Part shown: piece after piece, positions 19,501-48,728 of the stretch
Numbering within the stretch: the stretch's first letter is position 1
How the letters are laid out: each line of letters opens with the position of its first letter
Virus record (IMG/VR): IMGVR_UViG_3300007511_000030
Location: 1-53,840 of that record
Direction: 5' to 3' (one strand)
Source: a virus
Length of the DNA: 53,840 nucleotides
Notes under the pieces: model-generated
The model's input: only the letters and a program-made list of their open reading frames with translations
Databases searched by the model: none
Told to the model about the DNA's origin: nothing
Made by a program: the position numbers and the translations under genes

Positions 19501-22500
19501 AGCACGAGAATCTCGTCACCAACGGTGACATCTACCGCTTGGCTGATTTTACGGGAGCAGAACGACCAAAACCCCGGCACCCGGATTCTGTATTTACTGA
19601 TTTTGGAGACCCAGAATTCCAGTCCCTCAGACGATCTATCAGAGAAATAGTTGTCGGGTTGCAGGGGTCGAACAAAGTTGCGAAGGGGCGTGGCCACGTT
19701 AAATCGATAACCGATACTTTAGGCCACGTTATCCACTCTGGCATTCTCTCTGAAGAAGATGTTACTGCCGTGATGAAGGCCTACAGGCCAATCAGCAGGA
19801 CGGACGACATGCTCCGTCAAAAACAAAATTACAACGCGACAGGCCAGTTGGCTAAATTTGAGCGCCGGACTTACGCTGACGAGGAACGTGACGATGCTCT
19901 GCACTGGTTTGCTTTTGACACCGCGCGCCTTTTAAATAATTCTGGATCCCAGATATCTGACCCGCATTTAGTCAACATACAAGACAGGACCATTGAGGGT
20001 CTGGCTTACGTGCTCAATGGTCAAATCAAAAGCAAAGAGCTAAAAGCTAAATTCCCAATGCTGGACGCATTCGGCGATATGTTCGCCCCGTTGCGTGTCG
20101 GAGGTAAGCATCCACTACTTGATACCCTTGGCAGACGCACGGCAATTCCCCAGGAATATTCCGTTGAATACGTCGGTCAGCTTTTGGAATCAATGACCCC
20201 ACAGCGGTTTGATGCGGTCATGTCATTCGTTGGGCGCGGCATAGGAAGAGCGAGCGACTCATCGCCCGTAGTCTTTTGGCACGGCACAGCCAGCGGACCG
20301 ATCGAGGCCACCCCCGAATTTAAAGTAAACATGTCTGATTCCGGCTCTGTCTGGGGGCCGGGCTTCTATGTCACTTATGGCGAGAACGCCAGGAAGGCTG
20401 CGACTTTTTACGCCAGCGGTGCTGTTTCCAGCCGTAGCTACGAATTCCGCATCAGAGACGCATTGGAGAAAGGCGCCCTGACCGACAAGGAAGCGGAAGA
20501 AATGCTCGGTGTCGCGCTCGATCTGCTCGATGCCCGAAATGTTATCCGGCACAACAATGCCCTGCTTCGCCGAATCGAGCAGGAGATCACCTACGAAGAT
20601 CCCAGCATGACGTTTGAGGATCTCAACAAGAATTCACGAATCGCCAGAAGCATTCGTGAATCTAAAGAATACATGCGGGTCGCTGGCGATGTCGAACGCT
20701 TCGCGCAAGACATGCTCCGCGAACACGGCATTGGCGATGACCCCCACATGATCCCGATGGTTGCCCACATTAACCATCCAGTTGACTTCAGAGATGCTCG
20801 GTCTTACGACATGAACAGCCCCCTGATTAGAGAAATTGTAGAACTTGGATCAACGATGGGTGTGCTTGATTCATTCGCGCTGCGCCGAATTGACGCCAAC
20901 TTCAGCCGACCACTAAACGGAAGCGACACATACAAAGCGCTTGTCGACGCATTTCACGCCAATCAAAACTCGCTTGGCAAGAGACACGCAAAAGAACTTC
21001 TGGCCAAGTTCCTGAAAGATGAGCTTGGCTACGATGGGATGACATACACGCACGGTTTTGTTGACCATAATGGGGATGAAACTCTGTTTGATGGGGCTGT
21101 GGTTTGGGATCAGAGCCAGGTCAAAGCGCTGACAGCAAAAGAGTTTGACGGCACGTCAGACGTATTCAGCCAGCACGTTATTCAACCGCGAGCTGATGTG
21201 GTCGATGGCGTAACCCCGAACGGCATTTTGATGTCCGCACACATCGCAGACGCCCGCGCAAGAAACAATGCGATGAACTTCTCTGCAATCGGTAACTCCC
21301 TGGAAGAAGGAGGCACATCGCCCCGTCTGGTCGATACGATGCGGAATATGCTTAAGGGCAAGAAAGCCACCGACTCTGATATACGGGAGGTGCGGAAAGT
21401 TGCTCGCGGCTTGCAGCTCAGAACCAACTCCAGTCGGATCCGCGCTTGGGGCGGCAATTGGTTTGCTGACTGGGTGGCCCCAGTCGAAGGCACCGGATAC
21501 TATGAAAGTCACCACATCATGCTCGCTGGCAAGATCATGCCAATCATCAAGCGCTTGAACGACGCAACTTCTGGCCACAATGTCAAAGGCGCAATGAAGA
21601 GATGGATGTCGAAATCCAATCCGCTATCTAAGAACATGACGGCGGAAGAAGAAAAAATTGCGAAGGCGCTCAGACGGGCTCCAGGGAATAAATACGAGAA
21701 GTCGTTGACCCCCGCTGGTCGAGAAACACTAGCAATGATTCGCGGTATGTTCGCCGACGAGATAAATGAAATGGAGAAGGCCGGAATCATTACTGGCCGA
21801 ATCGAAAACTACTTCCCCCAGATTTGGAGCACAGAGAAGATCCGTAGAAACATGGATGACTTCAGACGGGGGATGGCCAGGTATTTTGTCCACGAAGCTC
21901 AGGACCGTGGAGAGACATTATCAATGTCTGATGCGCTACACCGAGCTGATGGAATGACTGAGACGCTCCTGCTTGAAGACGGCATCAATCTCCCCCCCGC
22001 TGGCGGTGGAAGTCGGGACAAGGTAACTGACCACATCGACTACCAGAGGCTGATCCGTCTGGATCAGTACCCCGAGATGGTTGATGCGCTCGAGCCCTTC
22101 CTCGAAAACAATCTGCGCGACGTGCTCGTCAAGTACCTTGATGGCACAACATCCAGGCTGCTGTTCCACAACAAGTTTGGCGTCAAGAACCACGGCTTCT
22201 ACGCATACAAGAAAGTCATCCAAGAAGGCGAAGAAGGAATCATTGATCTTCTCGTTTCTGACTCAATCAAGATGCGTCCCATTAAGGGAAGAGTCGGGGG
22301 CGAGGCTGTCGTAGAGCACGCTAACTTCAAGCACCGGGTCATCAACGCACCTTACAGTGCAGAGTCACGAAATGACGCCGCAGTTGCTGTACGTCAAGCA
22401 ATGGATCTGTACCGCAACCGTGGCGCTCTCGCCGCCAAGAAATATCTCGATGATCTGTCTGAAGAGCCGAACCCGGAATGGGGTAAGCGAGTCGATGCGA

Positions 22501-23903
22501 TTGTCGCTGCAATGAAGATTGTTCAGGAAGATCCGGTCATCCATTCTCAGGAACTCGATCACATCGAAATGATGATGAACGCACTTCAGCGTAAACCCAT
22601 CGATGGTGGCAGCCGGTTCTTTGAGCCCCAACATAACTTATCGAAGAAGGCGCGCAACTTCACCGCAGTCACATTGCTTGGATGGACGGCACTGACGTCT
22701 ACCACTGACCCGGTGCTGCCTCTAATCCGTTCGGGATCAATTAAGGCTTGGCTCCGAGGAATGCGTGACTGGGCCAAAAACCCGAACTACCGGGACATGA
22801 TGCGCGAATCCGGCATAGCCATCGAGAACCTCGTGCATGAGCGACTGGTTCACCAGTACGGTGTGGACGGATCGAAACTTGCAACATCTTTCTTCAATGC
22901 AACGATGCTGACTCCGTGGACTCAGATGCAACGAGAGTGGGCAGGATTGGTCGGATACAACTGGTTCAAGGCCGAGCAGAAAAATTACTTCCAATACGGC
23001 AAAGATAGTCGACGAGGTAAGAGAGCGTTTCGTGTTTTGAAATCGTACGGCCTCGAGCATCTGATGAAAGATGGCGCCTACCAGCTCGATACACCGAACG
23101 ATATCGGCTCAGACGACGCTCTAAAGATGTCGCTGATTAAATTTGCTAACCAGTCCATCTACGCCCCCAACCCGAACGACATCCCAATGTGGGGTCAAAC
23201 ACCGATCGGGGCTATGGTGTTCCAGTTAAAGTCATTCCCGATGATGATGGGCCGTATGGTCGGTGGACGTAATGAAACCACGGGGATCATTCAGGAATTC
23301 AAAGCCGGGAACAAAACCCCCCTGCTCTATTTCGCGGCGATTGCCCCGTGGTTTGGTGCCGGATCACTGGCAGCCAAGGATTACGCGCAATTCCGTGGTG
23401 GCGATACCGAACGCGAGTCAGCCCTTCGAGAGCGATCTCTTAACAAGTCACTCGACTCGATCGGCTTGGAAGAATTAGCAGAGACGCTCGGCTATGATCC
23501 GCGCCTCCATCCAGACATGGACGCATGGCTCGGCAACTACGTTGAAGGCTTCGGGCATCTGGGTGGCTTGTCGTTACTCGGTGAGTTGATGCACAGCGCT
23601 GCTGCCAACGCAGACAACGGGCAGTACGGCGTGAACAGAATCATGTCGGCACTCCTTGGCCCCAGCTTCAGTCACACACAAGGAGCGATTGAAGTATTCC
23701 AGGGCGCTCACTCGATGATAAGGGGCGACGAAGCACCGGGGAAACGCAGGGCAGCGGCCAGACAAGTTGCCAGTCGCATCCCGATTCTTGGTGGAATCCG
23801 GGCGTTTAGGGAAGGTGTTGTGGATTCAGTCGCAGGAGAAGCGACTGCTCGGAAAAGCAAATCAAGTGGAAGTTGGGGATCTGGCTGGGGATCTAGCTGG
23901 TAA
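13593..23903 (+). CDS. giant polyvalent ejection protein (zincin + ADP-ribosyltransferase-like domains)
   Basis: This 3436-residue protein (roughly 380 kDa) ends the internal-virion cluster, where T7 has gp16. Visible parts in order: a helical start; glycine-rich hydrophobic segments at about 123-160 and 209-240 that could insert in membranes; a Pro/Thr-rich linker (486-560) and a long charged middle; a zinc metallopeptidase motif HEVGH at 1444-1448; and an ART-PolyVal-like domain at about 2225-2515, with WHGT, then GPGFYVT, and a closing FDGAVVWDQSQVKAL. The C-terminal 420 residues resemble the large polyvalent-protein-associated domain LPD38 and end in a Ser/Gly/Trp tail. Polyvalent proteins are known to enter the host with the DNA and act early. 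No lysozyme or transglycosylase motif was seen. The reading frame is unbroken, and the gene takes about a fifth of the window. Confidence 0.85.
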   Translation: MPTLNELIAQQSNINENSDQWDYDVESIDKSKVLSDPRVLADMRRLFEVEGGKFDSDEDMVNYWYRLQSGGDTNLLLAGRLLAEASNDDQEMKRIKSRLARVRQHMPGPGEEGHPGWWEWTRGYVGNALWDITNFGGIGLAAKGIRGAALAGKIAKGKTATSAIGKKRMAQVGALEAGISGGQEAALNTMGQLRDIEIGVQDEFDYGELGLATGFGVLIGGVIGGAISGGATWFVGTRALSNIQKLRSAGWRDEDIAQLGEQQFKEAWQQSLPAPHIERTVPGDTIGMFNDPSMFEDGVPSGRPLTEEEVENLDRAPHYGSDTMSEEELALGAGIEPTRSPDSGLDAEERLLAEQRRQVEEELVDLRLSAEGSGPESTLWDQIQEAATRLSNIRKLQNWKARILREQAEIDAMLASNDPKRIEIGRIRTIDNAKTRAEYETLLRRVALDPSELDQLDQTLDQPSFLQSAETSWGADNLNAGQVIDPAGPPKPPEQVGPPKPSEPEPSSEAAAIGARGEPLPDTAPTTDATPTADTAPTTGDTATTTADAEPAQTKGRPKKLKDTHRQYLLDNNIVTEQQLEKTRPQRLAYKLAQHAGLGVKRPDGSNKTTEEILAEFDEWKTKADEDAASVEANETPVGETAASSAPKSAEDALVALSTEMILANPDSFLDRTIVFNRIEQNGLPKDVQDAMKDQWLTIMNQEPKSHHFLEGLNDEDAKWINREVGKRWKQIEQNATPMLMANPAMKEMYGSVDGFLKAARVRLEQQVRADYLEGKIGPRKRKKSATQTAIDKVEGSLGPRTDEQKTSAEIIAENLRIAREAKAQRDLERAVPQEAAPDEGTKTTARLTGEAQERGIQGETEARAYADLTGTKSPIKFRATGTERLSDTKRVDTENVDARRQREEAIEDAKSRADKGDAQATEELLELQKMGERVFKPAFAKKGQEAWYDPTTGRVFSNRNNINVANKIAEDVDLGPKVTPDAAHNAAAERRRVTLAEAIKNIKAKIDRNALLTEKEAVAYPEMQDELARLEARLGPKQEKSPDKTPEQVDDAELIYDEDGLESAVTPDEAGATVVQTGRRQVTNEDGDVEILDSVARTPEEHTVAITRAFQDYQESGNPQTLQDAIKRINEEFALEGTSIAIPEPSVQPGVRKGDRVVAIVKRDGDLSERKSKRVISQNQIAAGKGYRDLLGNAKEEDWIVGSVPRGISASDPNFAKHFVPDTPDDAPAIAKIPEGQPGSDQTSIDTFAAQTFELFSTPKTGGRVVTGPFSDIYEKILQVGTKYSEYFDNAAYKDGRIVITGSNLDRVILDLGHGFPESKKGGFAKTIDEHRDRVTMLETMLEVRRQLAPNGIRRQDEDLTQATDRLVNNIFSESDEATKTVARSVLQKLSIAYKLSPSGAPGRAPIIQANQDGGFGFAHGKNTIEVGDLGNGYAPNAGRLIHEVGHWAWDNILTDADKIEYLQMFNRYYNEDGSLNLAALEGRTIDNALIRTNALEGPGEFFASQLERWATQNVYRNEIGNETFWVRMVNYMKAIFDRYMDGRRIDPEMERLFKKILPANEARAAALRGPTTRAGTRAGQAIMNRAWALDDIMERLEGSLEGEDIEQSLFVPVELMHYLYSIGGGADGKNPLNAVAPIKSEIARASRELKDALNIPEGINFDRSIEVLSDIDPSSMEFVRRTELVRRLLDEGIVAEQPNVPMRPIRDIVEDIRQRLAKKFYNTEGEHYRTDNMPPSVKKYAYKNANGDYRAPGRKGGGRGRKYAAAAKQREKRKERVAKDLEKAQNMVAKDNGAPPVNSPSLKTLSDDELLTLWEQHSTGKFGKQIANEYGARVAARPLPVDPVEIPNEVFEMNTKDLLVAGRDAWRSGDSGRLHQVLYEYGRRAHNKNNPDNKIQAVRSKHVIDIMTRELADTVGDEANDGIPASARANVREILTQFSNRNPARQVAERRIMYRLLALAGRTQPGPEHENLVTNGDIYRLADFTGAERPKPRHPDSVFTDFGDPEFQSLRRSIREIVVGLQGSNKVAKGRGHVKSITDTLGHVIHSGILSEEDVTAVMKAYRPISRTDDMLRQKQNYNATGQLAKFERRTYADEERDDALHWFAFDTARLLNNSGSQISDPHLVNIQDRTIEGLAYVLNGQIKSKELKAKFPMLDAFGDMFAPLRVGGKHPLLDTLGRRTAIPQEYSVEYVGQLLESMTPQRFDAVMSFVGRGIGRASDSSPVVFWHGTASGPIEATPEFKVNMSDSGSVWGPGFYVTYGENARKAATFYASGAVSSRSYEFRIRDALEKGALTDKEAEEMLGVALDLLDARNVIRHNNALLRRIEQEITYEDPSMTFEDLNKNSRIARSIRESKEYMRVAGDVERFAQDMLREHGIGDDPHMIPMVAHINHPVDFRDARSYDMNSPLIREIVELGSTMGVLDSFALRRIDANFSRPLNGSDTYKALVDAFHANQNSLGKRHAKELLAKFLKDELGYDGMTYTHGFVDHNGDETLFDGAVVWDQSQVKALTAKEFDGTSDVFSQHVIQPRADVVDGVTPNGILMSAHIADARARNNAMNFSAIGNSLEEGGTSPRLVDTMRNMLKGKKATDSDIREVRKVARGLQLRTNSSRIRAWGGNWFADWVAPVEGTGYYESHHIMLAGKIMPIIKRLNDATSGHNVKGAMKRWMSKSNPLSKNMTAEEEKIAKALRRAPGNKYEKSLTPAGRETLAMIRGMFADEINEMEKAGIITGRIENYFPQIWSTEKIRRNMDDFRRGMARYFVHEAQDRGETLSMSDALHRADGMTETLLLEDGINLPPAGGGSRDKVTDHIDYQRLIRLDQYPEMVDALEPFLENNLRDVLVKYLDGTTSRLLFHNKFGVKNHGFYAYKKVIQEGEEGIIDLLVSDSIKMRPIKGRVGGEAVVEHANFKHRVINAPYSAESRNDAAVAVRQAMDLYRNRGALAAKKYLDDLSEEPNPEWGKRVDAIVAAMKIVQEDPVIHSQELDHIEMMMNALQRKPIDGGSRFFEPQHNLSKKARNFTAVTLLGWTALTSTTDPVLPLIRSGSIKAWLRGMRDWAKNPNYRDMMRESGIAIENLVHERLVHQYGVDGSKLATSFFNATMLTPWTQMQREWAGLVGYNWFKAEQKNYFQYGKDSRRGKRAFRVLKSYGLEHLMKDGAYQLDTPNDIGSDDALKMSLIKFANQSIYAPNPNDIPMWGQTPIGAMVFQLKSFPMMMGRMVGGRNETTGIIQEFKAGNKTPLLYFAAIAPWFGAGSLAAKDYAQFRGGDTERESALRERSLNKSLDSIGLEELAETLGYDPRLHPDMDAWLGNYVEGFGHLGGLSLLGELMHSAAANADNGQYGVNRIMSALLGPSFSHTQGAIEVFQGAHSMIRGDEAPGKRRAAARQVASRIPILGGIRAFREGVVDSVAGEATARKSKSSGSWGSGWGSSW

Positions 23904-27298: not shown

Positions 27299-27541
27299 AT
27301 GAAACGACAAAAATTCAACGTGGCCAGATTAGTCAAAGACATGGGGGGGGCAAGCGCCGTGGCGAATCTGCTCGGCACCCCCCGGACCGCCCCGTACCGT
27401 TGGATAAGGCATCGTTATGTCTCGAGTCGAATGCTGGAAGCTCTGAAGTGGCATCACCCAGACTTAAAAATCGACGAATACTTTGAGGACTACGACAACG
27501 ATGACAACGATGACAACGAGCACAACCCAAACCTGCACTAA
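27299..27541 (+). CDS. small Cro/HTH-like regulator
   Basis: The 80-residue product starts at ATG 27299 (GGAGCG upstream). VARLVKDMGGASAVANLLGTPRTAPYRWIRHRY looks like a helix-turn-helix of the Cro or YdaS kind, in which the protein reads DNA through a helix near RTAPYRW. The C-terminus is an acidic Asp/Asn-rich tail (DNDDNDDNEHNPN) coming from a short ACGATGACA repeat that overlaps the next gene. Its place between divergent operons, next to a palindrome, suggests it regulates both. This role is inferred. Confidence 0.65.
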   Translation: MKRQKFNVARLVKDMGGASAVANLLGTPRTAPYRWIRHRYVSSRMLEALKWHHPDLKIDEYFEDYDNDDNDDNEHNPNLH

Positions 27542-33669: not shown

Positions 33670-33710
33670 CCTTAGCAGGGGAGCGCCTTCAGCCGCTCGG
33701 CCACCTCTCC
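33670..33710 (-). other. attP: attP core: 5' half of tRNA-Ser(GCU)
   Basis: On the - strand the 41 bases read as a tRNA-Ser start: acceptor GGAGAGG, TG, D arm GCC...GGC, anticodon stem CTCCC, loop CTGCTAA with anticodon GCT, then GG. After this the sequence departs (ATTCTAAGG) and no T arm or 3' acceptor follows, so it is not an intact tRNA. It lies 50 bases from the integrase stop. Integration would join phage sequence to the host tRNA within the anticodon arm. A second CTAAGGGA nearby may be an arm of the core. Confidence 0.8.
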
Positions 33711-33760: not shown

Positions 33761-34834
33761 TTACCTTACAACTTTTATGTGACCACAACTTTCGGGTGCA
33801 TCTAGTAGTACGTCATCGAATGTCACCCACTTCAATCCATTGATCGCACTCGTTAAATTCTTTGGCGCCAGATGTGAATACCGCATCACCATCGCTAAAG
33901 TCTTGTGACCAAGCAGGTCGGCAACCTTCCTAATCCCCGTGTCGTTAATCACTAGATGTGAGGCGAAGGTATGTCGACAATCGTTTGGCACAAAGTCTTC
34001 GATCCCGCACTCATCCATCAGCGCAGAGAACCTGTCCTGAAACGTCTTGTCTGACCAACGCTCACCCCGCGCGTTCGGAAATACTAATCCATCTCGCGCT
34101 TTCTCATCAACAAACTTCATCACTTTCTCATGCACCGGAACCTGCCGACGCCTGAGCATCGAGCCCCGGCCCTTCCGAGTGCCGTACTCAAAAAACCACT
34201 GGCCGTCTTTCTCGAGAACCTTCCGATAATCCAGCCCCAACACCTCATTCAGACGGCCCCCCGTGTAAATCAGGGCAGTCAGCACTGGTCTGATGTCATC
34301 CTTGGCCGTTCTTAGCACCAGTTCGATCTCGAACAACTCCAGATATCGAACCCGCTGATCGTCGACCGTGGGCTTGCGCACCTTCGGAACCACCTTAATC
34401 ATCTCCAGTTCCCTGGCGTGATTGAACACACTGGACATCGCGCTCAGATCTCGTCTGATACTGCCGGGCTTGTTGCCGTTGTGTCTCTTCTTAACGTATG
34501 CAGCTACGTCAGTCGGCTTAATCTCCACCACTGGCGTATCTTTCCAGTAGTGCTTTTGTAGATTAACCATCCTTGCCTGAGTACCAGACACCCCTTCTGG
34601 CCGATCAAGGTAAGCATCAGCGCACTCAGAGAATGTCGTCTGATGCTCTGCTCCCTTGCCCGTGCTTAACAGAAGGCGACGCTCGATATCCAGACACTTG
34701 ATCCGCGCTTCTGCTATATCGCTTGGACGCAGACCAAGTTTCTTTCGATGGCGCACACCGTTGACATAGCCATCAGTACACAACCAACCGTCACGCTCTG
34801 TTACGCGAAGTCCGCTTCTTCTTGCCTTTGCCAT
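33761..34834 (-). CDS. int: tyrosine recombinase integrase
   Basis: The 357-residue product starts at ATG 34834 with GAAGGAGGG before it; the longer frame to 34909 lacks a site. An N-terminal SAM-like/core-binding domain (KHYWKDTPVVEIKPTDVAAYV-type) is followed by the catalytic domain: Arg194 in TGGRLNE, Arg287 and His288 in CRHTFAS, LGHKT, and Tyr319 in MRYSHL. It overlaps the LuxR-type gene by 44 bases, so its translation is coupled to that regulator. The adjacent tRNA-derived core at 33670-33710 is the expected attP. The enzyme would integrate and, with a directionality factor not seen here, excise the phage. Confidence 0.92.
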   Translation of the reverse strand: MAKARRSGLRVTERDGWLCTDGYVNGVRHRKKLGLRPSDIAEARIKCLDIERRLLLSTGKGAEHQTTFSECADAYLDRPEGVSGTQARMVNLQKHYWKDTPVVEIKPTDVAAYVKKRHNGNKPGSIRRDLSAMSSVFNHARELEMIKVVPKVRKPTVDDQRVRYLELFEIELVLRTAKDDIRPVLTALIYTGGRLNEVLGLDYRKVLEKDGQWFFEYGTRKGRGSMLRRRQVPVHEKVMKFVDEKARDGLVFPNARGERWSDKTFQDRFSALMDECGIEDFVPNDCRHTFASHLVINDTGIRKVADLLGHKTLAMVMRYSHLAPKNLTSAINGLKWVTFDDVLLDAPESCGHIKVVR

Positions 34835-35222
34835 TCGAGCCCTCCTTCGCCCAGTTTTTGGGAACCCCTCCCGAGATACCAACATACACATCGTCTGGCA
34901 TCTGCTCAAAGATCCGCGCTGCCTTCATTACAATCTGTGATCTCGACGTCACGCCGAACTTCTGAGCAATCGTTCTGACAAACACCTTCACTGTGTTTAT
35001 CGAAACGCCAAACCGTCCTGCTATCTCCGGGTTTGTTGCTCCCAACAAAAGCATCTGCAAACACTTGTGTTGCTTAGTCGTCAGCAGTCCAAGTGCTGTT
35101 GCCTCGTCAGAGTCAAGCACTGTTGCTCCCCCTGATTCTCCCGAGGCTAATGCCTCTACCATCCTCGTAAGTGTTTCAACTTTTACCTCAAGTATCGCAA
35201 GACGTTCTTCTTGCCTCGCCAT
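34791..35222 (-). CDS. LuxR-type HTH regulator coupled to integrase
   Basis: The 143-residue product has a short coiled coil (residues 5-28), then a LuxR-type helix-turn-helix (LTTKQHKCLQMLLLGATNPEIAGRFGVSINTVKVFVRTIAQKFGVTSRSQ in short parts, about residues 47-97), and a basic Lys/Arg-rich tail. No receiver or autoinducer domain is present, so it is an orphan HTH. AAGGGAGGCGAATT precedes the ATG. It overlaps the integrase start and probably controls lysogeny genes or the integrase itself; the basic tail is read in the integrase overlap. Confidence 0.8.
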   Translation of the reverse strand: MARQEERLAILEVKVETLTRMVEALASGESGGATVLDSDEATALGLLTTKQHKCLQMLLLGATNPEIAGRFGVSINTVKVFVRTIAQKFGVTSRSQIVMKAARIFEQMPDDVYVGISGGVPKNWAKEGSNGKGKKKRTSRNRA

Positions 35223-40598: not shown

Positions 40599-40788
40599 GG
40601 TTTTTTCTCCTGCTTGATTGCGTTTCCACTTCTCGACATATCTCCTGTACTTTCTTGATGTCTACGTGCCGGATCTTCCGCGCCCTTACTACCTTGGCCA
40701 CTTGAATCCAGAATTCCCATGGTCGCTTGGGCCAGTGCTTCATCCACTCACTGTCGACCGTGCCTACTGATTTTTTCTTCGGCCCCAT
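40591..40788 (-). CDS. small basic protein, unknown function
   Basis: The 65-residue product is basic and helical with many Trp (MKHWPKRPWEFWIQVAKVV) and overlaps both neighbours: its ATG shares bases with the CobT-like stop (TAATG) and its end overlaps the gene at 40050. It may be a small partner of the VWA protein. Confidence 0.6.
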   Translation of the reverse strand: MGPKKKSVGTVDSEWMKHWPKRPWEFWIQVAKVVRARKIRHVDIKKVQEICREVETQSSRRKNHE

Positions 40789-42659
40789 TACGCAGCTCGC
40801 AATGCGTGCTTCGCCTTCATGAGATCCGAGTTGTCTGGCTTGTACCGATCGTTGATGAGCAACTTGCCCAACTCATCCATCGTTGCTTTTGGCAAGTCAT
40901 TCAAGTTATCGATCACCTGCCACCGTGGATAGAACTGCTGAACAGCGTCGCTCATGATCCCGATGCCCACGCAATCGGCCTTCTTGGAAACCATCTCGAT
41001 GACATCTCGAAGATGTTGATCGAGATGCCCCTGACCAAACGATGTGTTGCAGGCCGGGTATCCGTCTGACAACACGATCAGGATCTTTCTCTTGCTTGGC
41101 CTCACCCGCAGCCGTGCCCACGCATTGAGCACCGCTTCACCGTCTGAGTTGCAACCAGCAACACAGTAGTAGATGCGACCCATCGCGCCACGAGCATCGA
41201 ACAGTCGCTCATCGAACTCCTTGAACACATACATATCGAGAGCGCCATACCGCGAAGATTTCGGTCTGGCACCACCCCGCGCAAACTTTCTGGCGGGATC
41301 GTTATGGACGAATCCGGTCGAGTTGTTGAAGCCCAACACTTCATACTCGACTGGCGTTCTTTCCAGACACTCGGCCAATGCGATTGCGACTTGGGTTGCC
41401 AGATACGCGGGCTGACCACACATAGAGCCGGATAGATCGATGAGAATTTCGATACTGGTATCGAAGTCGTCAGTTTCTTCCCGTGCCTTGAACACATTAG
41501 GCTCGCCCTTGTAGGCAGCCGGGAGTCGGCGCGAGTCGAGGTTCCCTTCCAGACGACCAAAGTCCCAGTTGCGTTCCATCTTTGCGGTGATGGCCCGCTC
41601 GAGTTTCCGGCGCATGGTGTTCACCTTGCCCACCATCTCCCTCTTAATCTCTTCGTAGTGTTCAGCGTTTTTGCTCGTGATCTGCGAGATTGTTGCTCGG
41701 TTGTTATTAGCGCCTCCCGTGTACTTGGCTTTCTTGTCGTGACGTGTGTGCCACTTGTCACTGGCCGTGCTCTCCGGTCGATACGCACGCTCCCGATCCC
41801 CTTCGTCAATCTTGTCCCGCCATGTGCTCTCAAGCGCATCAGCGGGTTCGATCTCTAAGGGGTTTTGATCCCCACTGGACTCGTGTGCTTTGCCATATGC
41901 TGATCGAGCCTTGCGAACTTCCGTGGTTCCGGTTTCCCCCTCGCCATCTGCCTCGTACGGCTCATCAATGATCGGGTCGCCACCTTCTTCTTCCTGCTTC
42001 TCACGGATGTCTGAGTCGATACGTCGCGCCAGCTCAACGACATCAGCCGAATTCCGACACGCCTTGATCGCCCTCGCCCATGCCTCGGACTCCTTCTGCA
42101 ATTTCTCTGGCAACAGATCAATGCACTTCTGATTGGTGTCGGTGTCGTAACCCAACAGTTTTCGACCCTGCCATGTCAGCGCAATCGTCATGATTTTCTG
42201 CCTGTCTGACACAGCGTCTGACTCGGAGTGGCGATTGAGGAACTCGGAATTAACGGCCTCCGTAGTCGCAGTCAGATTGCGTAACGACCCCGGATATTCG
42301 TCAATGATTCGATCCTCAATACGCACATCCTCGATGGCGTTTATCAGGCGGGGAAGAATCTTGTTGCCGTCCTTTGCACATTGCTTATTGGTTTGGGCCA
42401 ACAGGGGCATATCGCTATGCCGAACGTGACCGGCCTCGTGGTCGATGTAACCCCTCGCCACAAGCACCTGCTCAGACGTCAACTGCTTCCCGCTTGGCAA
42501 CGACGGCAGAACAATGGTGTTCCCATTGGTTCCCGCTTGGTCGCCACTGAACACCACGTTAATGTCGAACTTCCGACCGAACGTGCGCCCCGTGCCATGT
42601 GCTTCGATCGTGAAGTTCTCGGTGGACATCGAGTGATCCGTAAGTGAGTAACCACTCAT
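40788..42659 (-). CDS. CobT-like VWA protein with HEAGH zincin motif
   Basis: The 623-residue product starts at ATG 42659 with AAGGAGGTCGCA upstream. Residues 74-78 are HEAGH (IDHEAGHVRH), a zinc-site motif. A charged linker (Glu/Gly/Asp-rich) leads to a von Willebrand A domain whose metal-binding motif is DLSGSM (408-413), followed by GFNNSTGF and a C-terminal KADCVGIGIM helix. This order is the CobT/VWA-with-MoxR pattern known in cobaltochelatase and other AAA+ pairs. The MoxR/CobS-like gene lies just upstream. The pair probably remodels a protein target; the target is unknown. Confidence 0.8.
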   Translation of the reverse strand: MSGYSLTDHSMSTENFTIEAHGTGRTFGRKFDINVVFSGDQAGTNGNTIVLPSLPSGKQLTSEQVLVARGYIDHEAGHVRHSDMPLLAQTNKQCAKDGNKILPRLINAIEDVRIEDRIIDEYPGSLRNLTATTEAVNSEFLNRHSESDAVSDRQKIMTIALTWQGRKLLGYDTDTNQKCIDLLPEKLQKESEAWARAIKACRNSADVVELARRIDSDIREKQEEEGGDPIIDEPYEADGEGETGTTEVRKARSAYGKAHESSGDQNPLEIEPADALESTWRDKIDEGDRERAYRPESTASDKWHTRHDKKAKYTGGANNNRATISQITSKNAEHYEEIKREMVGKVNTMRRKLERAITAKMERNWDFGRLEGNLDSRRLPAAYKGEPNVFKAREETDDFDTSIEILIDLSGSMCGQPAYLATQVAIALAECLERTPVEYEVLGFNNSTGFVHNDPARKFARGGARPKSSRYGALDMYVFKEFDERLFDARGAMGRIYYCVAGCNSDGEAVLNAWARLRVRPSKRKILIVLSDGYPACNTSFGQGHLDQHLRDVIEMVSKKADCVGIGIMSDAVQQFYPRWQVIDNLNDLPKATMDELGKLLINDRYKPDNSDLMKAKHALRAA

Positions 42660-42790
42660 CGTTTGCGACCTCCTTCTCTCCATTTGTGTTTGGGCACAAA
42701 CTGCGCTTTGCCCTTACTCACTAAGGCGTACGCAGCCTTGTCATTCATGCGTACGATCTTTCCCGTTGATGTTTGTTTGACGCATTTCAT
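42656..42790 (-). CDS. 44-residue micro-protein between CobS- and CobT-like genes
   Basis: An ATG that follows the ATPase stop without a gap (TAAATG) opens MKCVKQTSTGKIVRMNDK; the frame ends in TGA overlapping the CobT-like start. The product is basic (VPKHKWREGGRKR end) and includes DKAAYALVSKGKAQFV. I recall similar micro-proteins from phages. The AAGGAGG of the VWA gene lies inside it. It is too short for usual ORF calls, but its place with exact overlaps on both sides supports it. Confidence 0.65.
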   Translation of the reverse strand: MKCVKQTSTGKIVRMNDKAAYALVSKGKAQFVPKHKWREGGRKR

Positions 42791-44809
42791 TTATGCAGAT
42801 TCCTCGGTTGCGACCGTCCATGCTCGGTTGTGGATACCCTTGAGCACAGCGCGGTCTTGTGGTGATGCTCGGTTCAATATGCAGACCTCGAACGCCTCGC
42901 TACTGGCCTTGTTCTCATCCGGCAACAGCGCAAGGAAGTTCGTCAACGTCTGGCCCCAACTGATAACGCCTCGTGGCGACAACGGTTGCAGGATCTCTGC
43001 ATTAACGAACGCTTCCCGGTGTTCCTTGACGTACCGCATGATGGCGTCAGCAAACCGTTCCGGCAGTGCGGGTGATCTCGCCATAAGCAACTTCTTTTCC
43101 TCGCCCGGCTTGAGATACTCGACGTTCATCCAACGAGTGAACCTGTCGAGAAACGCTTGGGACTGTGGCCGTGCGCCCTGATATAGACCGAAGTCATCTC
43201 CCTGCCCCACCGTGTTGGCGTTAGCCACCAGACGGTGCATGGGGTGAGCATTGACATAACGACCACCGTCCTCGGTGATGAGCAGTCCATTGCCCTCAAG
43301 CATCCTGTTGAACACATACGAAACCTCAGCCCTGATGCGATCGACCTCATCGCAGACCAAGACATAAGGCCCATTGAGCGCCGTGGGCAACACACCATCC
43401 ACAAACTTGGAAGTCGTGACTCCACCGTCGTTCGTGAGAACGTCACGGCCCATCAGATCCATGCGGGTGATCTCGGAGTCGAAGTTGATGCGAATCATCG
43501 GCCAGTTCATACGAGCCAGCGTCTGCTCGATCAGTGTCGTCTTGCCTGTCCCGGTGTGACCAACGAGATACGACCGCTCGCCAGACACCAAGGCTTGCAA
43601 GAGATTGAGGAGTGGCATCGCCTGGAAGATGTAATCCGGGTCGATAGCCGGGACATGGGGGTGTGGAGAATCCCACTTGAACACAGGGATCTCGAACTTG
43701 AAGGCGGGCTTGCCCCGCTTGATTTTGAAAACGTCTGACGCCAGTTTCTGTTCGATCTCGCCCTCGGGGATATCCCCACTGGCCTCAACCTGTGCGGGCA
43801 TCGTCGGTGCTGACGACATCGAGCCCATCTTCTTACGCAGACTGTCTGCTTCCTGCTTTGCGACCTGCCCATCCCGAATCTTGGCAATCAGGTCGTCTGC
43901 GTCCTTGACACCGCCAGACGTGGCGTTTGACAGCATTGTGTCGAGCACCGCTTTGAAATCCGCTTTCACGGAAATCGTGGGCACTGTACCGGAGTCGGAC
44001 TCGCCGTCTGATTCGTCGCCATCATCGCCAATCAGCGTTTTCGTGGCGACTTCCGCAATGCTCGTGGCCAAATCATCGCCAACTGCTGTTGCGAATTCAA
44101 ACTCGTCGTCGCTAAGAGCGCGGGCCTGAATCGACGCTCTCAACGCATCAATGCGACCCGTCTGATCGGTTGTGTCGGCAGAGTTTTCGAGGTGCGTAAG
44201 GAATTTGTCGGACAGACTTTCTGCCGATTCAAAGTCTCCTTCGTTATCACGAACAAATACATCGTGCGCATTGATCAACTGATCTAGCGACGCAGAGTAG
44301 GTATCTGGATTCATAGAATCTCCTGTTGTGGTGGGTGTGGTGGTTGATGGTGGGAAGTGTTTTTCTATACGCTCTTGCAAGTCGTCTGGCTCACGGGTCG
44401 CTCCCAAAATGACCCCGGTACGTGATGCTTTGCTTTTGACTGGGCACTCGTCGTTCCAGATCAGACGCATACGCCCCATGCCCGTATCGTAGAAAACATC
44501 CTCGGCTTCGAAACCGCCGAGGATGCCCATCCAAATCGCTAACGAGATCTCACGAAGGGTGTGGACTGGCAAGCAGTCACGAAATCCGACCAGTGAATCG
44601 CGCGGATTGATTTGGTTCTCTCCATTGCCGATGTATGAGGAAAGCGCGGTAGCGCTAGTCCACGCATCTTCCAGATAGTCGAGAGCCTCGTGCTCGAGCC
44701 CACTAAGAGCGGTGTTAAAGATTTCTCGATGGAGGCGTCGTTCGTCCTCACTCAGCATTTGCTCCGTGAAAACACGACGAATGGTTTGCTGTAAAGCAGT
44801 TTCGGTCAT
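42791..44809 (-). CDS. MoxR/CobS-like AAA+ ATPase
   Basis: The 672-residue product starts at ATG 44809 (AGGGAGCG upstream), not 44845. An N-terminal region of about 390 residues, rich in acids and probably a partner-binding domain, precedes the AAA+ module: Walker A GHTGTGKT (417-424), Walker B LVCDEVDR, a RMLEGNGLLITEDGG loop, Sensor-1 LVANANT, and an arginine-finger-like FLDRFTRW. This is the MoxR/CobS form that works with a VWA protein, encoded just downstream. It is the first gene of the second leftward operon and has an operator-like palindrome 39 bases upstream. Confidence 0.85.
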   Translation of the reverse strand: MTETALQQTIRRVFTEQMLSEDERRLHREIFNTALSGLEHEALDYLEDAWTSATALSSYIGNGENQINPRDSLVGFRDCLPVHTLREISLAIWMGILGGFEAEDVFYDTGMGRMRLIWNDECPVKSKASRTGVILGATREPDDLQERIEKHFPPSTTTPTTTGDSMNPDTYSASLDQLINAHDVFVRDNEGDFESAESLSDKFLTHLENSADTTDQTGRIDALRASIQARALSDDEFEFATAVGDDLATSIAEVATKTLIGDDGDESDGESDSGTVPTISVKADFKAVLDTMLSNATSGGVKDADDLIAKIRDGQVAKQEADSLRKKMGSMSSAPTMPAQVEASGDIPEGEIEQKLASDVFKIKRGKPAFKFEIPVFKWDSPHPHVPAIDPDYIFQAMPLLNLLQALVSGERSYLVGHTGTGKTTLIEQTLARMNWPMIRINFDSEITRMDLMGRDVLTNDGGVTTSKFVDGVLPTALNGPYVLVCDEVDRIRAEVSYVFNRMLEGNGLLITEDGGRYVNAHPMHRLVANANTVGQGDDFGLYQGARPQSQAFLDRFTRWMNVEYLKPGEEKKLLMARSPALPERFADAIMRYVKEHREAFVNAEILQPLSPRGVISWGQTLTNFLALLPDENKASSEAFEVCILNRASPQDRAVLKGIHNRAWTVATEESA

Positions 44810-44847
44810 ATACGCTCCCTTTGTATATGCTTGGATGCACCCCAATT

Positions 44848-44978: not shown

Positions 44979-45176
44979 TCAACGTGTTGCGATTGTCTCG
45001 ATGGCCTCGAGAATGTCGTCGATCTCGCAGTCCACGACATCAACCTCGAGCATCTCGAGAAAGTGAAGCCACATGGTTCGGTCAATGTCCGACTCATAGG
45101 CCAGCGTGTTGCGATGCGCGACGTCGTCTGACAGATCGACTTCCTCGCCTTCGCAGATGATTTTGAGGTCGCTCAT
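44979..45176 (-). CDS. small acidic protein, paralogue of next gene's C-terminus
   Basis: The 65-residue product begins MSDLKIICEGEEVDLS. Its C-terminal 27 residues (LEMLEVDVVDCEIDDILEA) align with the C-terminus of the gene upstream (LETIEVDAVDWDADDILEH), suggesting a duplicated module. The start overlaps the previous gene by four bases. Function unknown. Confidence 0.6.
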   Translation of the reverse strand: MSDLKIICEGEEVDLSDDVAHRNTLAYESDIDRTMWLHFLEMLEVDVVDCEIDDILEAIETIATR

Positions 45177-45517
45177 GGTGTTGCGGTTGCCCCCATGTGT
45201 TCGAGAATGTCGTCTGCGTCCCAGTCCACGGCATCAACCTCGATCGTCTCGAGATCAGACATAACGTGGTCGCCGTTGCGAATTTCGTAATCAATCGAAG
45301 CGCAAGCCTCGATCAACTTTTCCTCTCGCATTTGCACCCCATCGGGAAACATGAACCATCCGTCGTCCGACATGGGGCAGACGTCGCCAAAGGAGGCCAC
45401 GTATGCCAGGTAAAACTCGACGTAATGGCCTTCAATCGTCGAGCCGTCAGACAACGTAGCGTCACCCTCGTGGCGCCAGTCATTAACGGTGGGGTCTACA
45501 TCAAGGATCATTTTCAT
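45173..45517 (-). CDS. small acidic protein with structured leader, unknown function
   Basis: The 114-residue product starts at ATG 45517 (GGAGAACG upstream). An N-terminal beta domain has ILDVDPTVNDWRHEGDATL and a central FMFPDGVQMREEKL; the C-terminus is the DDILEHMG module shared with the next gene. A leader of about 90 bases with two hairpins (related to the leader at 46595-46652) precedes it. Function unknown. Confidence 0.65.
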   Translation of the reverse strand: MKMILDVDPTVNDWRHEGDATLSDGSTIEGHYVEFYLAYVASFGDVCPMSDDGWFMFPDGVQMREEKLIEACASIDYEIRNGDHVMSDLETIEVDAVDWDADDILEHMGATATP

Positions 45518-45540
45518 AAACGTTCTCCGTAAAAATCCCA

Positions 45541-45606
45541 TAGGAAATTCAAAGTGGAACCCCTTTGGTTCCGGCCAGTTGTCCTACTCTTCCTTTGGAA
45601 GAACCC
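45541..45606 (-). ncRNA. candidate structured leader RNA, copy A
   Basis: Read leftward: hairpin CTTCC-AAA-GGAAG, a linker with TAGG and TGGC, hairpin GGAACC/GGTTCC with loop AAAGG, and CCTATGGG, whose TCCTA can pair with TAGGA in the linker (pseudoknot). Similar elements stand before the gene at 46175. It lies upstream of the 45173 gene. No known riboswitch is recognised. Confidence 0.5.
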
Positions 45607-45635
45607 GCACAAAGAGAAAAGTCCCGCCCGCACAA

Positions 45636-45643
45636 GGGGACGA
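45636..45643 (+). promoter_or_regulatory. GGGACGA motif, copy 5 (before small terminase candidate)
   Basis: GGGGACGA is flanked by AAGG and CCCTT, giving a small hairpin with loop GACGA, 36 bases before the terminase-related gene. The intergenic placement and strand match the other copies. Confidence 0.4.
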
Positions 45644-45678
45644 CCCTTGCGCCACGTTTGGCGTATAAGACAGTTGAT

Positions 45679-46059
45679 ATGACTGCCGAAGTTCGTAAAC
45701 CGATCACTGACGCGGTCGCACTGAGCCCACGCCAAATCGCGCGCATACGTGGCCAAATAGCGACCCATGTGAGGGATCTGATGCCACAAGCCGTCGAAGC
45801 AGCTCGCGGAGAGCGTACGTGGAGCAACCAACAAGTGACGTTATTCCGTACGTTGCTTGCGAAGGTCGTACCAGACCTGTCGCAATCACACAGCACGGTG
45901 GACATCACGACGCGTACGATCAACGAACTGACGCGCGAGGAGTTAGAAGCCATCGCGTCGGGCAACGATGCCCTTGATGGCGAGATTGTTGACACAATAG
46001 AGCGCGTCGACGATGACGATGCCCTTGTTAGGGGAGCGCGTAAGACAAAGAAACAATGA
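45679..46059 (+). CDS. small terminase subunit candidate
   Basis: The 126-residue product (ATG at 45679; a longer frame from 45565 would cover the leader) has an N-terminal helical part (SPRQIARIRGQIATHVRDLM) and a C-terminal region with KVVPDLSQSHSTVDITTRTINELTREELEAIASG, a pattern I recall from small terminase-like proteins (kvlPDL...eltreEL). It stands upstream of the large terminase with two genes between. A short acidic tail follows. Small subunits recognise the packaging site, but the call is moderate. Confidence 0.55.
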   Translation: MTAEVRKPITDAVALSPRQIARIRGQIATHVRDLMPQAVEAARGERTWSNQQVTLFRTLLAKVVPDLSQSHSTVDITTRTINELTREELEAIASGNDALDGEIVDTIERVDDDDALVRGARKTKKQ

Positions 46060-46130
46060 CTTACGTGTCGTTGTGACCAAATTTGTGTCGTTATCATGTT
46101 CAGACGGGCCTATGCGTAGGAAAAAAAGCC

Positions 46131-46160
46131 AAAAAAAAACGCGCGCCCCCGAAGGGGCGC
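46131..46160 (-). terminator. strong terminator for the 46175 gene
   Basis: Leftward, a 7-bp stem GCGCCCC/GGGGCGC with a four-base loop is followed by a nine-T run (46139-46131) and then a second T-run. It closes the single-gene unit at 46175-46579. Confidence 0.85.
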
Positions 46161-46174
46161 ACGAATGTCAGCGG

Positions 46175-46579
46175 TTACGACTTGTGCGAGGTGAACGCGG
46201 CCACGATCTGCGTGAGCTCCGCGACCTGCGCCTGCAACGCTGCGATCTCGGCAGCCTTGCTCGTGCGCGCCTCACCCTTGGCGGGGCGATCCACGCCCAG
46301 GCTCGCGAGCGTCGCGACCGGTGCGAGATCCTGCGCGCCGGGCACGCCCTCGACCTTGCCCATCGCGGCTTTTGACGAGCCGAAGTCGTGCAGGCACGCG
46401 CCCGCCTTGTCGACCGTCGCCGCACGCGGGCCCGTGACCGTGATCGGCCACAACTTGCCCGACGCGCTCACGCAAAGCGTGCCGTTGAACCAACGCACGT
46501 TGCGCTTGCCCACGGTCGTCGTTTGCCCGTTGCGGAACGTGATCTCAGGGCTGATGGTGTCCAAAGTGTGTGTGCTCAT
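46175..46579 (-). CDS. GC-rich moron-like gene, unknown function
   Basis: The 134-residue product has a polar N-terminal beta domain (ITFRNGQTTTVGKRNVRWFNG, VSASGKLWPITVTGP), then an Ala/Asp-rich C-terminal helix (SKAAEIAALQAQVAELTQIVAAF) that likely forms a coiled coil. It opposes the flanking packaging genes, has its own leader (GGAGACTCAC ribosome site, structured RNA copy B) and terminator, and is visibly richer in G+C. These are signs of a moron, a lysogenic- or fitness-type insertion. Function unknown. Confidence 0.65.
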   Translation of the reverse strand: MSTHTLDTISPEITFRNGQTTTVGKRNVRWFNGTLCVSASGKLWPITVTGPRAATVDKAGACLHDFGSSKAAMGKVEGVPGAQDLAPVATLASLGVDRPAKGEARTSKAAEIAALQAQVAELTQIVAAFTSHKS

Positions 46580-46594
46580 GTGAGTCTCCGTTGT

Positions 46595-46652
46595 GAGCCA
46601 TCGGGGAATCCTCCGGTCTCAGCCACCTGACCTATGTTTCCTTTGGAAACCG
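46595..46652 (-). ncRNA. candidate structured leader RNA, copy B
   Basis: Read leftward: hairpin GTTTCC-AAA-GGAAAC, then TAGG, GGTC...GACC hairpin around TGGC, and CCCCGATGG, ending 15 bases before the 46175 gene start. It shares the order and several bases (TTCCAAAGGAA, TAGG, TGGC, ATGG, CGGAGA) with copy A at 45541. Function unknown. Confidence 0.5.
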
Positions 46653-46794: not shown

Positions 46795-47040
46795 ATGGAA
46801 GAAACGATTGAAGACGATCTGGTAAAGAACCACGAAAAAGACCGACTAACTTCTAATATTTCTTTAGAAGATTTCGCGAAAGCGATGAGTCAGCTTGATC
46901 TCGACTCTGTAGCGCCGGAGAAGCGGCAAGCCGCAGTTCTTGACCACCTGATGCGGATCATGCAGAACGAGATCCACGACCGTCACGTAGCCAAGGAGAT
47001 CAAATATTCCCGCATCCTCAACGCCATGGAAGGCTCGTGA
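46795..47040 (+). CDS. small helical protein before large terminase
   Basis: The 81-residue product starts at an ATG with AAAGGAGACAAATC and overlaps the terminase start (GTG) by four bases. It is highly charged and helical (DFAKAMSQLDLDSVAPEKRQAAV). The 46653-46794 stretch before it is very GC-rich with no clear gene. It could be a true small terminase or a TerL accessory; position favours a packaging role. Confidence 0.65.
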   Translation: MEETIEDDLVKNHEKDRLTSNISLEDFAKAMSQLDLDSVAPEKRQAAVLDHLMRIMQNEIHDRHVAKEIKYSRILNAMEGS

Positions 47041-48728
47041 CAGCCGTCTCAAAGAAGGCCGCGGCTCAGCACCTTCTGAAACTTAAAAACGCTGAGGAGT
47101 CGTTTGAGGGCTTCGTACGGACGCTGCATCCCACATGGGAAATACCAGAGTTCCAGATAAAACTCATCACAGCGCTCGATCTACTCGAGAGGGGTGAACT
47201 CAAGTCCGGGTTCACAAACAAGATGACCATCAGACGGCCCGAACATCCGTCAAAACTTCACCCGGACAACTTCAAGGGCGACCCGATCAACAACATCTTG
47301 ATCAATATGCCCCCCCGTTTCGCGAAGAGCACCTTCTCAACGATGTATTTCCCTGCTTATTACATCCTGAAGAATCCCAGACGATACGTCATGAGCTGCT
47401 CGTACAACTCTCAGCTCTCCACAGACTTCGGCCGCCAGGTCCGAAACGTGGTTCAGGAGTTTTGGATCTCCCAGGCATTCCCCCAGTTCGAGATGTCGCA
47501 AGACTCCCGAGCTGCTGACGTCTGGCGCACGTCTGAATACGGCGCATATTTCGGAGTCGGCATCGGGGGCACCACATCTGGCCGCCCCGCCAACCTCTTG
47601 ATAGTCGATGACCCGGTCAAGGCGCGCGAAGAGGCCGAAAGCGCCACCATGCGCAACAAGATCTGGGACTACTACACCTCAGCACTCAATACCCGACTCC
47701 AACCTGAAGAAAACGGGGCGCCTCCCAAGACGATCGTCATCCTAACCCGCTGGCATCCAGACGATCTCGCTGGCCGTCTGATCCAAACTGACGACTGGAA
47801 AGAAGGCAGATGGCTCCATATCAATTTCCCCGCTGTCAAAAACATCGAGTCAGATTTCGATAGTCCCGTCTGGGAACTCCCAGAGGACGACCCCCGGTAT
47901 ATACCTCGAGGCAAACTACATACAGTCAGTAAACGAAAACGCTACTACAGGAAGCAGATAGAACAGGCGCTTTGGCCAGAACGATTCCCCCTGGAAGATC
48001 TGAAAAGGCGCGAGCGCCTCAACCCCCGCGAGTTCGCCGCCCTCTATCAGCAGACCCCCTATATCGCTGGTGGAAACATTCTCAAATCCGAGTGGTGGAA
48101 ATTTTACGCCGACGATCTAAGACCCGCACGCTTCAGCTCCATCGTTATTGCGGCAGCCACCGCGTTCAAGAAAACAGAAACATCTGACTACTCCGCCTTC
48201 ATCGTCATTGGCCTCGCCCATGACGGCGACATGTACATCCTCGACATCATAAGGAAACGATACGACTTCCCCGAGCTGAAACAAGCCGCCATCTCCCTAA
48301 ACAACACCTGGCGCGGCAAAGGACTTCGAGGCCTCTACATCGAAGACAAGGCGTCTGGCCAGTCTTTAATTCAGGAACTCAAACGCGAATCCGGCATCTC
48401 CGTTATTCCCTACAAGGTCAACAACGACAAGGTTGCACGCGTCAACTCAGTCACGCCCTTCATCGAAGGCGGCCGAGTATGGCTGCCCAAAACAGCCAAG
48501 TGGGTCGACGATTTCATCGAAGAAACCCTGGCCTTCCCGTCTGGCACTTACGACGATCAGGTAGACGCGCTTTCAATCGGTCTCGACTCCCTGTCTCGCC
48601 AGAATGCCTCACCAGACATGGTCGACTGGGATATCGACGTTTCCAAGTCATTAAACAACCGCTGGCACGATTTTCGAGATTCACTCAACTCTAATTTCCG
48701 CCCCCGATTTAAGGGCTGGGGTTTGTGA
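47037..48728 (+). CDS. terL: terminase large subunit
   Basis: The 563-residue product starts at GTG 47037. The ATPase domain has a Walker A-like NMPPRFAKST (Lys97) and Walker B LLIVDD (191-192). The C-terminal nuclease has a TAF...DYS motif (Asp384), a LYIEDKASG acid and YDDQVDA (506-510). The first catalytic Asp expected in the DTAF-type motif is Ala374 (GCC). If real, nuclease activity may depend on other acids. It uses ATP to pump DNA into the procapsid and cuts concatemers; direct GTG coupling to the small gene supports stoichiometric expression. Confidence 0.92.
   Translation: MTAVSKKAAAQHLLKLKNAEESFEGFVRTLHPTWEIPEFQIKLITALDLLERGELKSGFTNKMTIRRPEHPSKLHPDNFKGDPINNILINMPPRFAKSTFSTMYFPAYYILKNPRRYVMSCSYNSQLSTDFGRQVRNVVQEFWISQAFPQFEMSQDSRAADVWRTSEYGAYFGVGIGGTTSGRPANLLIVDDPVKAREEAESATMRNKIWDYYTSALNTRLQPEENGAPPKTIVILTRWHPDDLAGRLIQTDDWKEGRWLHINFPAVKNIESDFDSPVWELPEDDPRYIPRGKLHTVSKRKRYYRKQIEQALWPERFPLEDLKRRERLNPREFAALYQQTPYIAGGNILKSEWWKFYADDLRPARFSSIVIAAATAFKKTETSDYSAFIVIGLAHDGDMYILDIIRKRYDFPELKQAAISLNNTWRGKGLRGLYIEDKASGQSLIQELKRESGISVIPYKVNNDKVARVNSVTPFIEGGRVWLPKTAKWVDDFIEETLAFPSGTYDDQVDALSIGLDSLSRQNASPDMVDWDIDVSKSLNNRWHDFRDSLNSNFRPRFKGWGL

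Follow-up and report, generated by a model that had tools for sequence, protein, structure and literature searches.

Repeated hairpin leaders before early genes: a candidate structured RNA element of CRP-810-related roseophages

What is the meaning of two look-alike leaders that stand in front of two unrelated small genes of the same virus? The window analysed here is the whole of a 53,840-nucleotide stretch of viral DNA (IMG/VR record IMGVR_UViG_3300007511_000030, positions 1 to 53,840). A first-pass annotation had pointed out two related minus-strand leaders on opposite sides of a candidate small terminase gene, and had suggested a new phage RNA element. To our knowledge, few structured leader elements are known from phages of ocean bacteria. 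Below, W1 and W2 stand for leader 1 and leader 2 of the window, and stem A and stem B for the first and second hairpin of each. The features concerned are as follows.

45588 to 45602, minus strand: W1 stem A, TCTTCC-AAA-GGAAGA
45574 to 45587, minus strand: W1 linker, GTAGGACAACTGGC
45556 to 45572, minus strand: W1 stem B, GGAACC-AAAGG-GGTTCC
45524 to 45530, minus strand: W1 Shine-Dalgarno sequence, ACGGAGA
45173 to 45517, minus strand: P1 (114 aa), 3' of W1, ATG at 45517
46636 to 46650, minus strand: W2 stem A, GTTTCC-AAA-GGAAAC
46622 to 46635, minus strand: W2 linker, ATAGGTCAGGTGGC
46594 to 46621, minus strand: W2 stem B (weak), TGAG...CTCA plus ACC/TGG
46585 to 46590, minus strand: W2 Shine-Dalgarno sequence, CGGAGA
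46175 to 46579, minus strand: P2 (134 aa), 3' of W2, ATG at 46579
46140 to 46163, minus strand: intrinsic terminator 3' of P2, found at the same place in the related contigs L009 and L010
45679 to 46059, plus strand: small-terminase candidate between W1 and W2, conserved in position
47037 to 48728, plus strand: large terminase (TerL), 59% identical to that of Roseobacter phage CRP-810

Both leaders lie on the minus strand, each 5' of one small gene (P1 and P2), and follow the same order: stem A (6 bp with an AAA loop), a 14-nt linker with the common pattern NNAGG.CA..TGGC, stem B, a Shine-Dalgarno sequence and the start codon, which is 70 nt from stem A in W1 and 56 nt in W2. Among the 34 six-bp triloop hairpin sites of the window they form the most alike pair (21 of 29 positions identical), a likeness that is equalled in 3 of 1000 simulated windows (first-order Markov). 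Folding of single sequences is not exceptional (z of -0.4 to -0.7 for three of the four stretches folded), so the case for an element rests on comparison. With the covariance models of Rfam 15 no family reaches its gathering threshold on the leaders (on CRP-810 the same search yields only a tRNA). A known riboswitch or other Rfam RNA was therefore rejected; the first-pass annotation had likewise recognised no riboswitch.

Relatives were gathered by a TerL search of IMG/VR, which gave the near-identical contigs L003 to L006 and further contigs at 74-87% TerL identity. Both leaders are present in L009, and leader 2 in L008 and L007, contigs that begin nearby (the L007 copy is cut by the contig end). 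L010 and L011 also have both leaders, with the stem GTCCCC or TACCCC-AAA-GGGG.. and the linker GGGG.CA..TGG, and carry a third copy 5' of a different unrelated small gene (L010 5864); the three copies of L010 lie on one strand inside 1.4 kb. A covariance model that spans stem A and the linker was seeded with five copies. It recovers exactly 11 stretches (9 distinct), and no other site in the window or its relatives scores above 15 bits; L10a, L10c, L11a, L11c and the L007 copy were outside the seed. Within the window W1 and W2, both of them seed members, score 44.0 and 42.2 bits and the next best site 13.7. Orthologous copies occupy the same two sites in the relatives, orientation is constant and the start codon follows 50-80 nt from stem A. 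As can be read directly from the sequences, the genes behind the element are unrelated, both within and between genomes: P1 is without conservation among the relatives, P2 is conserved in L009, L010 and L011.

The architecture, the likeness of the pair and the orthologous copies thus bear out the reading of two related leaders before unrelated genes, and the further copies that the annotation called for do exist. Some of its details have to be dropped or qualified. The shared CC.ATGG, regarded as part of the element, is missing from the orthologous leaders, so its occurrence in W1 and W2 is attributed to chance; CGGAGA is indeed present in both leaders, but as an ordinary Shine-Dalgarno sequence. 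Nor is the flanking small terminase an organising principle, as the genes behind the copies include several small accessory ones and, for CRP-810, cobS.

Some neighbouring sequences were noted along the way. L009 keeps GTGCGGGTTTT, TAGGTCA, a stem B and CGGAGAG at 4680-4800, 5' of a 61-aa gene and without stem A; this stretch is a possible degenerate third copy. In L010 a perfect palindrome, ATAGTGCGCACTAT (5935-5955, minus strand), lies just 5' of the third copy, and its GCACTAT recurs before the second one.

Stem A is fully paired in all nine distinct copies (54 of 54 cells). Four of its six pairs have changed on both sides, whereas one-sided changes are absent and G-U intermediates were not seen; counting by eye gives a minimum of five double changes. 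The covariation score of 0.769 (against 0.283 in shuffles, none of 500 reaching it, and 0.03-0.30 in slid controls) is strong, though it comes from related copies and is no count of independent events, which are few because there are only three phage groups. With three copies from CRP-810 added (see below), stem A is still 93.8% paired. The helix of stem A thus displays the compensatory change by which a structured cis-regulatory RNA is recognised, and the covariation that had been suspected is found here. A DNA palindrome to which a protein dimer binds would be expected to show the same symmetric changes.

Stem B is moderately supported. Its individual folding does not stand out from shuffles (p of 0.08-0.40), and the summed energy does (p of 0.003, from copies that are not independent). 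In the L009 ortholog of W1 it reads TGAACC-AGTCC-GGTTCA, the stem being kept and the loop changed. Double changes are seen in its first pair between W1 and L9a (G-C/U-A) and once between GGCT/AGCC of L10a and GACT/AGTC of L10c (G-C/A-U). In the P2 leaders it is weak; of the two second hairpins that the annotation took to differ in letters but not in place, that of W1 is solid and that of W2 poor.

The distribution of letters in stem A follows two different lines. The outermost pair is U-A before P1 and G-C before P2 in both lineages, and from this it follows that the P1 and P2 positions parted before the lineages did. The inner pairs and the linker go by genome: the window and L009 have TT/AA with TAGG in both their copies, and every copy in L010 and L011 has CC/GG with GGGG. 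Such parallel change across the copies of one genome suggests a trans-acting reader, even though limited gene conversion could also make the copies of a genome share letters.

The best annotated relative of the window is Roseobacter phage CRP-810. It infects FZCC0198, and a family-level group of marine phages, most of them carrying an integrase, was founded on it, with 251 members that are uncultured (PMC11288001). The window has counterparts, in like order, of the CRP-810 genes for Prim-Pol, a Cas4-like nuclease, a Sak4-like ATPase, CobS, CobT, integrase and portal. The AAA-form covariance model gives no match on CRP-810. Nonetheless, CCCGAAGGGAC with at most one mismatch has exactly three sites there against about 0.6 expected, the copies having been spotted by eye before sites were counted. 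These sites have a GAA loop, are all on the early strand and lie 5' of gp01, gp04 and gp06/cobS. In all three, CTTCNTG.. comes next, then a stem B with 7-12 bp and finally a ribosome site. Four of the six stem A pairs are formed before gp01 (two mismatches), five before gp04 and all six before gp06. From the architecture and the linker ends (TGTGGCTGAG in L9b, TGTGGTGAG before gp04) we infer that the GAA form is homologous with the AAA form. A stretch TTGACT-18-TATACA, read by eye upstream of gp06, would start transcription of this gene some 20-25 nt before stem A and thereby place the element in the RNA, which is suggestive only. Separately, a perfect AACCCC-AAA-GGGGTT hairpin was seen at L146 22469 (CRP-810 57469, minus strand), within annotated gp63 and on the late-gene strand.

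Other parts of the window can be compared with CRP-810 as well. On the minus strand at 33670-33710, GGAGAGGTGGCCGAGCGGCTGAAGGCGCTCCCCTGCTAAGG resembles the 5' half of a tRNA-Ser and adjoins the integrase gene (33761-34909); it is probably the attP core, while CRP-810 uses tRNA-Thr (PMC11288001). A pair of genes for a CobT-like VWA and a CobS-like AAA protein occupies 40788-44845, and CRP-810 has the same pair. Positions 13593-23903 form a single virion ORF of 3436 residues with nearly no recognisable domains; only a stretch near the C end weakly matches a PHROG virion family.

In the data searched, namely IMG/VR patterns, distant TerL relatives and Rfam, the AAA form is confined to this group. 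A relaxed letter pattern run over IMG/VR returned 48 stretches, of which 6 are in-group with a 6-bp stem and the other 42 have no stem longer than 5 bp. The covariance model found nothing on 73 contigs whose TerL is 25-34% identical, scans of bacterial genomes with TerS and TerL gave no close relatives, and the oyster-associated phage PQ867845, which has CobS in common, has no such element. The GAA form was sought in CRP-810, and the IMG/VR pattern scan dealt with the AAA form. In the unrelated phage L061 the hairpin TGCACC-GAA-GGTGCA occurs twice (minus strand, 3343 and 3040; spacing 300 nt), once directly 5' of AGGAGTAAATAATG.

The leader element is real, no earlier description of it was found, and most likely it acts as RNA. 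Our preferred reading, held tentatively and with somewhat less than even confidence, is a lineage-specific cis-acting leader RNA element of CRP-810-related roseophages that would be read by a phage factor and would bear on the translation or mRNA fate of early genes. Its unit would consist of a triloop hairpin with C-AAA-G or C-GAA-G at its tip and, after some 14 nt of conserved linker, another hairpin whose letters vary, the whole placed 50-80 nt 5' of the start codons of early or accessory genes. In the transcribed leader, stem A plus linker would make up a putative site for a phage-encoded RNA-binding factor; this factor may then control several early genes jointly, at translation initiation or through the fate of their mRNA, the outcome being a small post-transcriptional regulon. 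We infer the RNA action, the trans factor and the step controlled. As the downstream genes differ, this is not gene-specific feedback. A wider version, in which a phage-wide regulon represents a new RNA family across CRP-810-type phages whose hairpin letters co-evolve with a putative phage-encoded RNA-binding protein, is possible but somewhat more doubtful. The possibility that P2 is the binding protein was considered; with a poor AlphaFold model (mean pLDDT 62), a Foldseek search gave no hit (best E 0.26).

The dyad symmetry of stem A, its purely symmetric changes and the lack of G-U intermediates would also suit a DNA operator, with a phage repressor or Cro-like dimer sitting on 15 bp of palindrome at early promoters and the linker inside the promoter region. 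The phage is probably temperate, given its integrase, and a small HTH-like protein is encoded at 27299-27541 (weak matches). A DNA-binding reader would account for stem A just as well, though not for the asymmetric linker and stem B, whose conservation is one-sided and in every case on the coding strand, 5' of the ribosome site. Moreover, the window genome has only two sites, neither near the HTH gene, and a strict consensus scan shows no sigma-70-like promoter in or around the element (the L010 version is G-rich there). We therefore regard an operator as unlikely. Marginally less probable still is an antitermination RNA of the HK022 put or lambda nut type, whose nascent leader would alter RNA polymerase and thereby let it pass early terminators. 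Two hairpins heading early units, at least two similar copies per genome and terminators between units are in line with this, and the putL and putR RNAs of HK022 are likewise about 70 nt long, with two stem-loops and two per genome (PMC9378689). The put stem-loops, however, meet at about one nucleotide where the roseophage stems are separated by the conserved 14-nt linker, there is no Rfam match, and no conserved boxA was seen by eye. The roseophage copies also occur three close together and inside apparent operons: such repetition in L010 would be redundant for antitermination, as would the L010 third copy (L10c) and the gp04 copy of CRP-810, which start 20-30 nt after the preceding gene. Because these copies adjoin the preceding gene, control per gene fits better.

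It might further be argued that these are ordinary 5' UTR hairpins, protecting the mRNA or keeping the ribosome site open and duplicated along with genes, without any trans factor. Unrelated phages (L027, L061, L143) also have hairpins right before ribosome sites. A generic hairpin, however, needs neither the invariant CC-AAA-GG core and linker nor joint letter changes, and the predicted accessibility of the Shine-Dalgarno sequence varies widely among the leaders; this explanation we consider rather improbable. A hairpin promoter for an N4-type virion RNA polymerase is very improbable indeed. Its short stem and 3-nt loop before early genes (PMC4496689) recall the 6-bp stem and triloop found here, and the giant 3436-aa virion protein has the size of the N4 enzyme. 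Yet this protein has neither an RNA polymerase match nor the catalytic motif set, and in the N4 promoter the loop of the template strand must have a purine at its centre (PMC4496689, PMC3715699), whereas here, for the minus-strand genes, that loop is TTT; the linker and second hairpin come on top. With no recognisable polymerase and the wrong loop strand, this option is largely refuted. A short leader peptide, with stem A inside a mini-ORF that ends at the linker TAG, has next to nothing to commend it: fitting frames exist in W1, L9a and L9b (GTG CGG ... CCA AAG GAA ... TAG) and in L10a (ATG ... CCA AAG GGG TAA), but W2 and L7b have no start near the stem and L10b has no stop. As the reading frame is not conserved, it was rejected.

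Phage translational operators are exemplified by those of the MS2 coat protein and T4 RegA. The working proposed for the roseophage leaders would resemble these in that a phage protein recognises a short element in the leader, but the hairpin lies far 5' of the start codon and the reader is putative. In architecture and behaviour the closest match is the start-associated sequences (SAS) and extended SAS of cluster K mycobacteriophages, short repeats 5' of the start codons of unrelated non-structural genes, with inverted repeats, a short spacer, a subcluster-specific consensus and an unexplained function (PMC3203893). The roseophage element likewise has an inverted repeat 5' of start codons, unrelated genes behind it and a lineage-specific consensus; by this analogy it would work like one without being a member. 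Sequence, host phylum and phage type are different, and against 11-19 copies of a 13-bp asymmetric repeat in cluster K (PMC3203893) there are 2-3 known copies in the roseophages. Each of these combines a triloop hairpin with a linker and a further hairpin, at 50-80 nt from the start codon, and the leaders have CGGAGA-type sites only instead of the 13-bp GGGATAGGAGCCC at start codons.

Summarizing, a new phage RNA element is the best reading of these leaders, in which RNA action rather than a DNA palindrome is the more interpretative part and stem B the moderately supported one. The resemblance to the unexplained start-associated repeats of mycobacteriophages adds to the interest of the element. 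The joint change of all copies in a genome may provide a handle for finding its partner molecule and, as it occurs in relatives of the cultured phage CRP-810, its proposed role would be open to testing.
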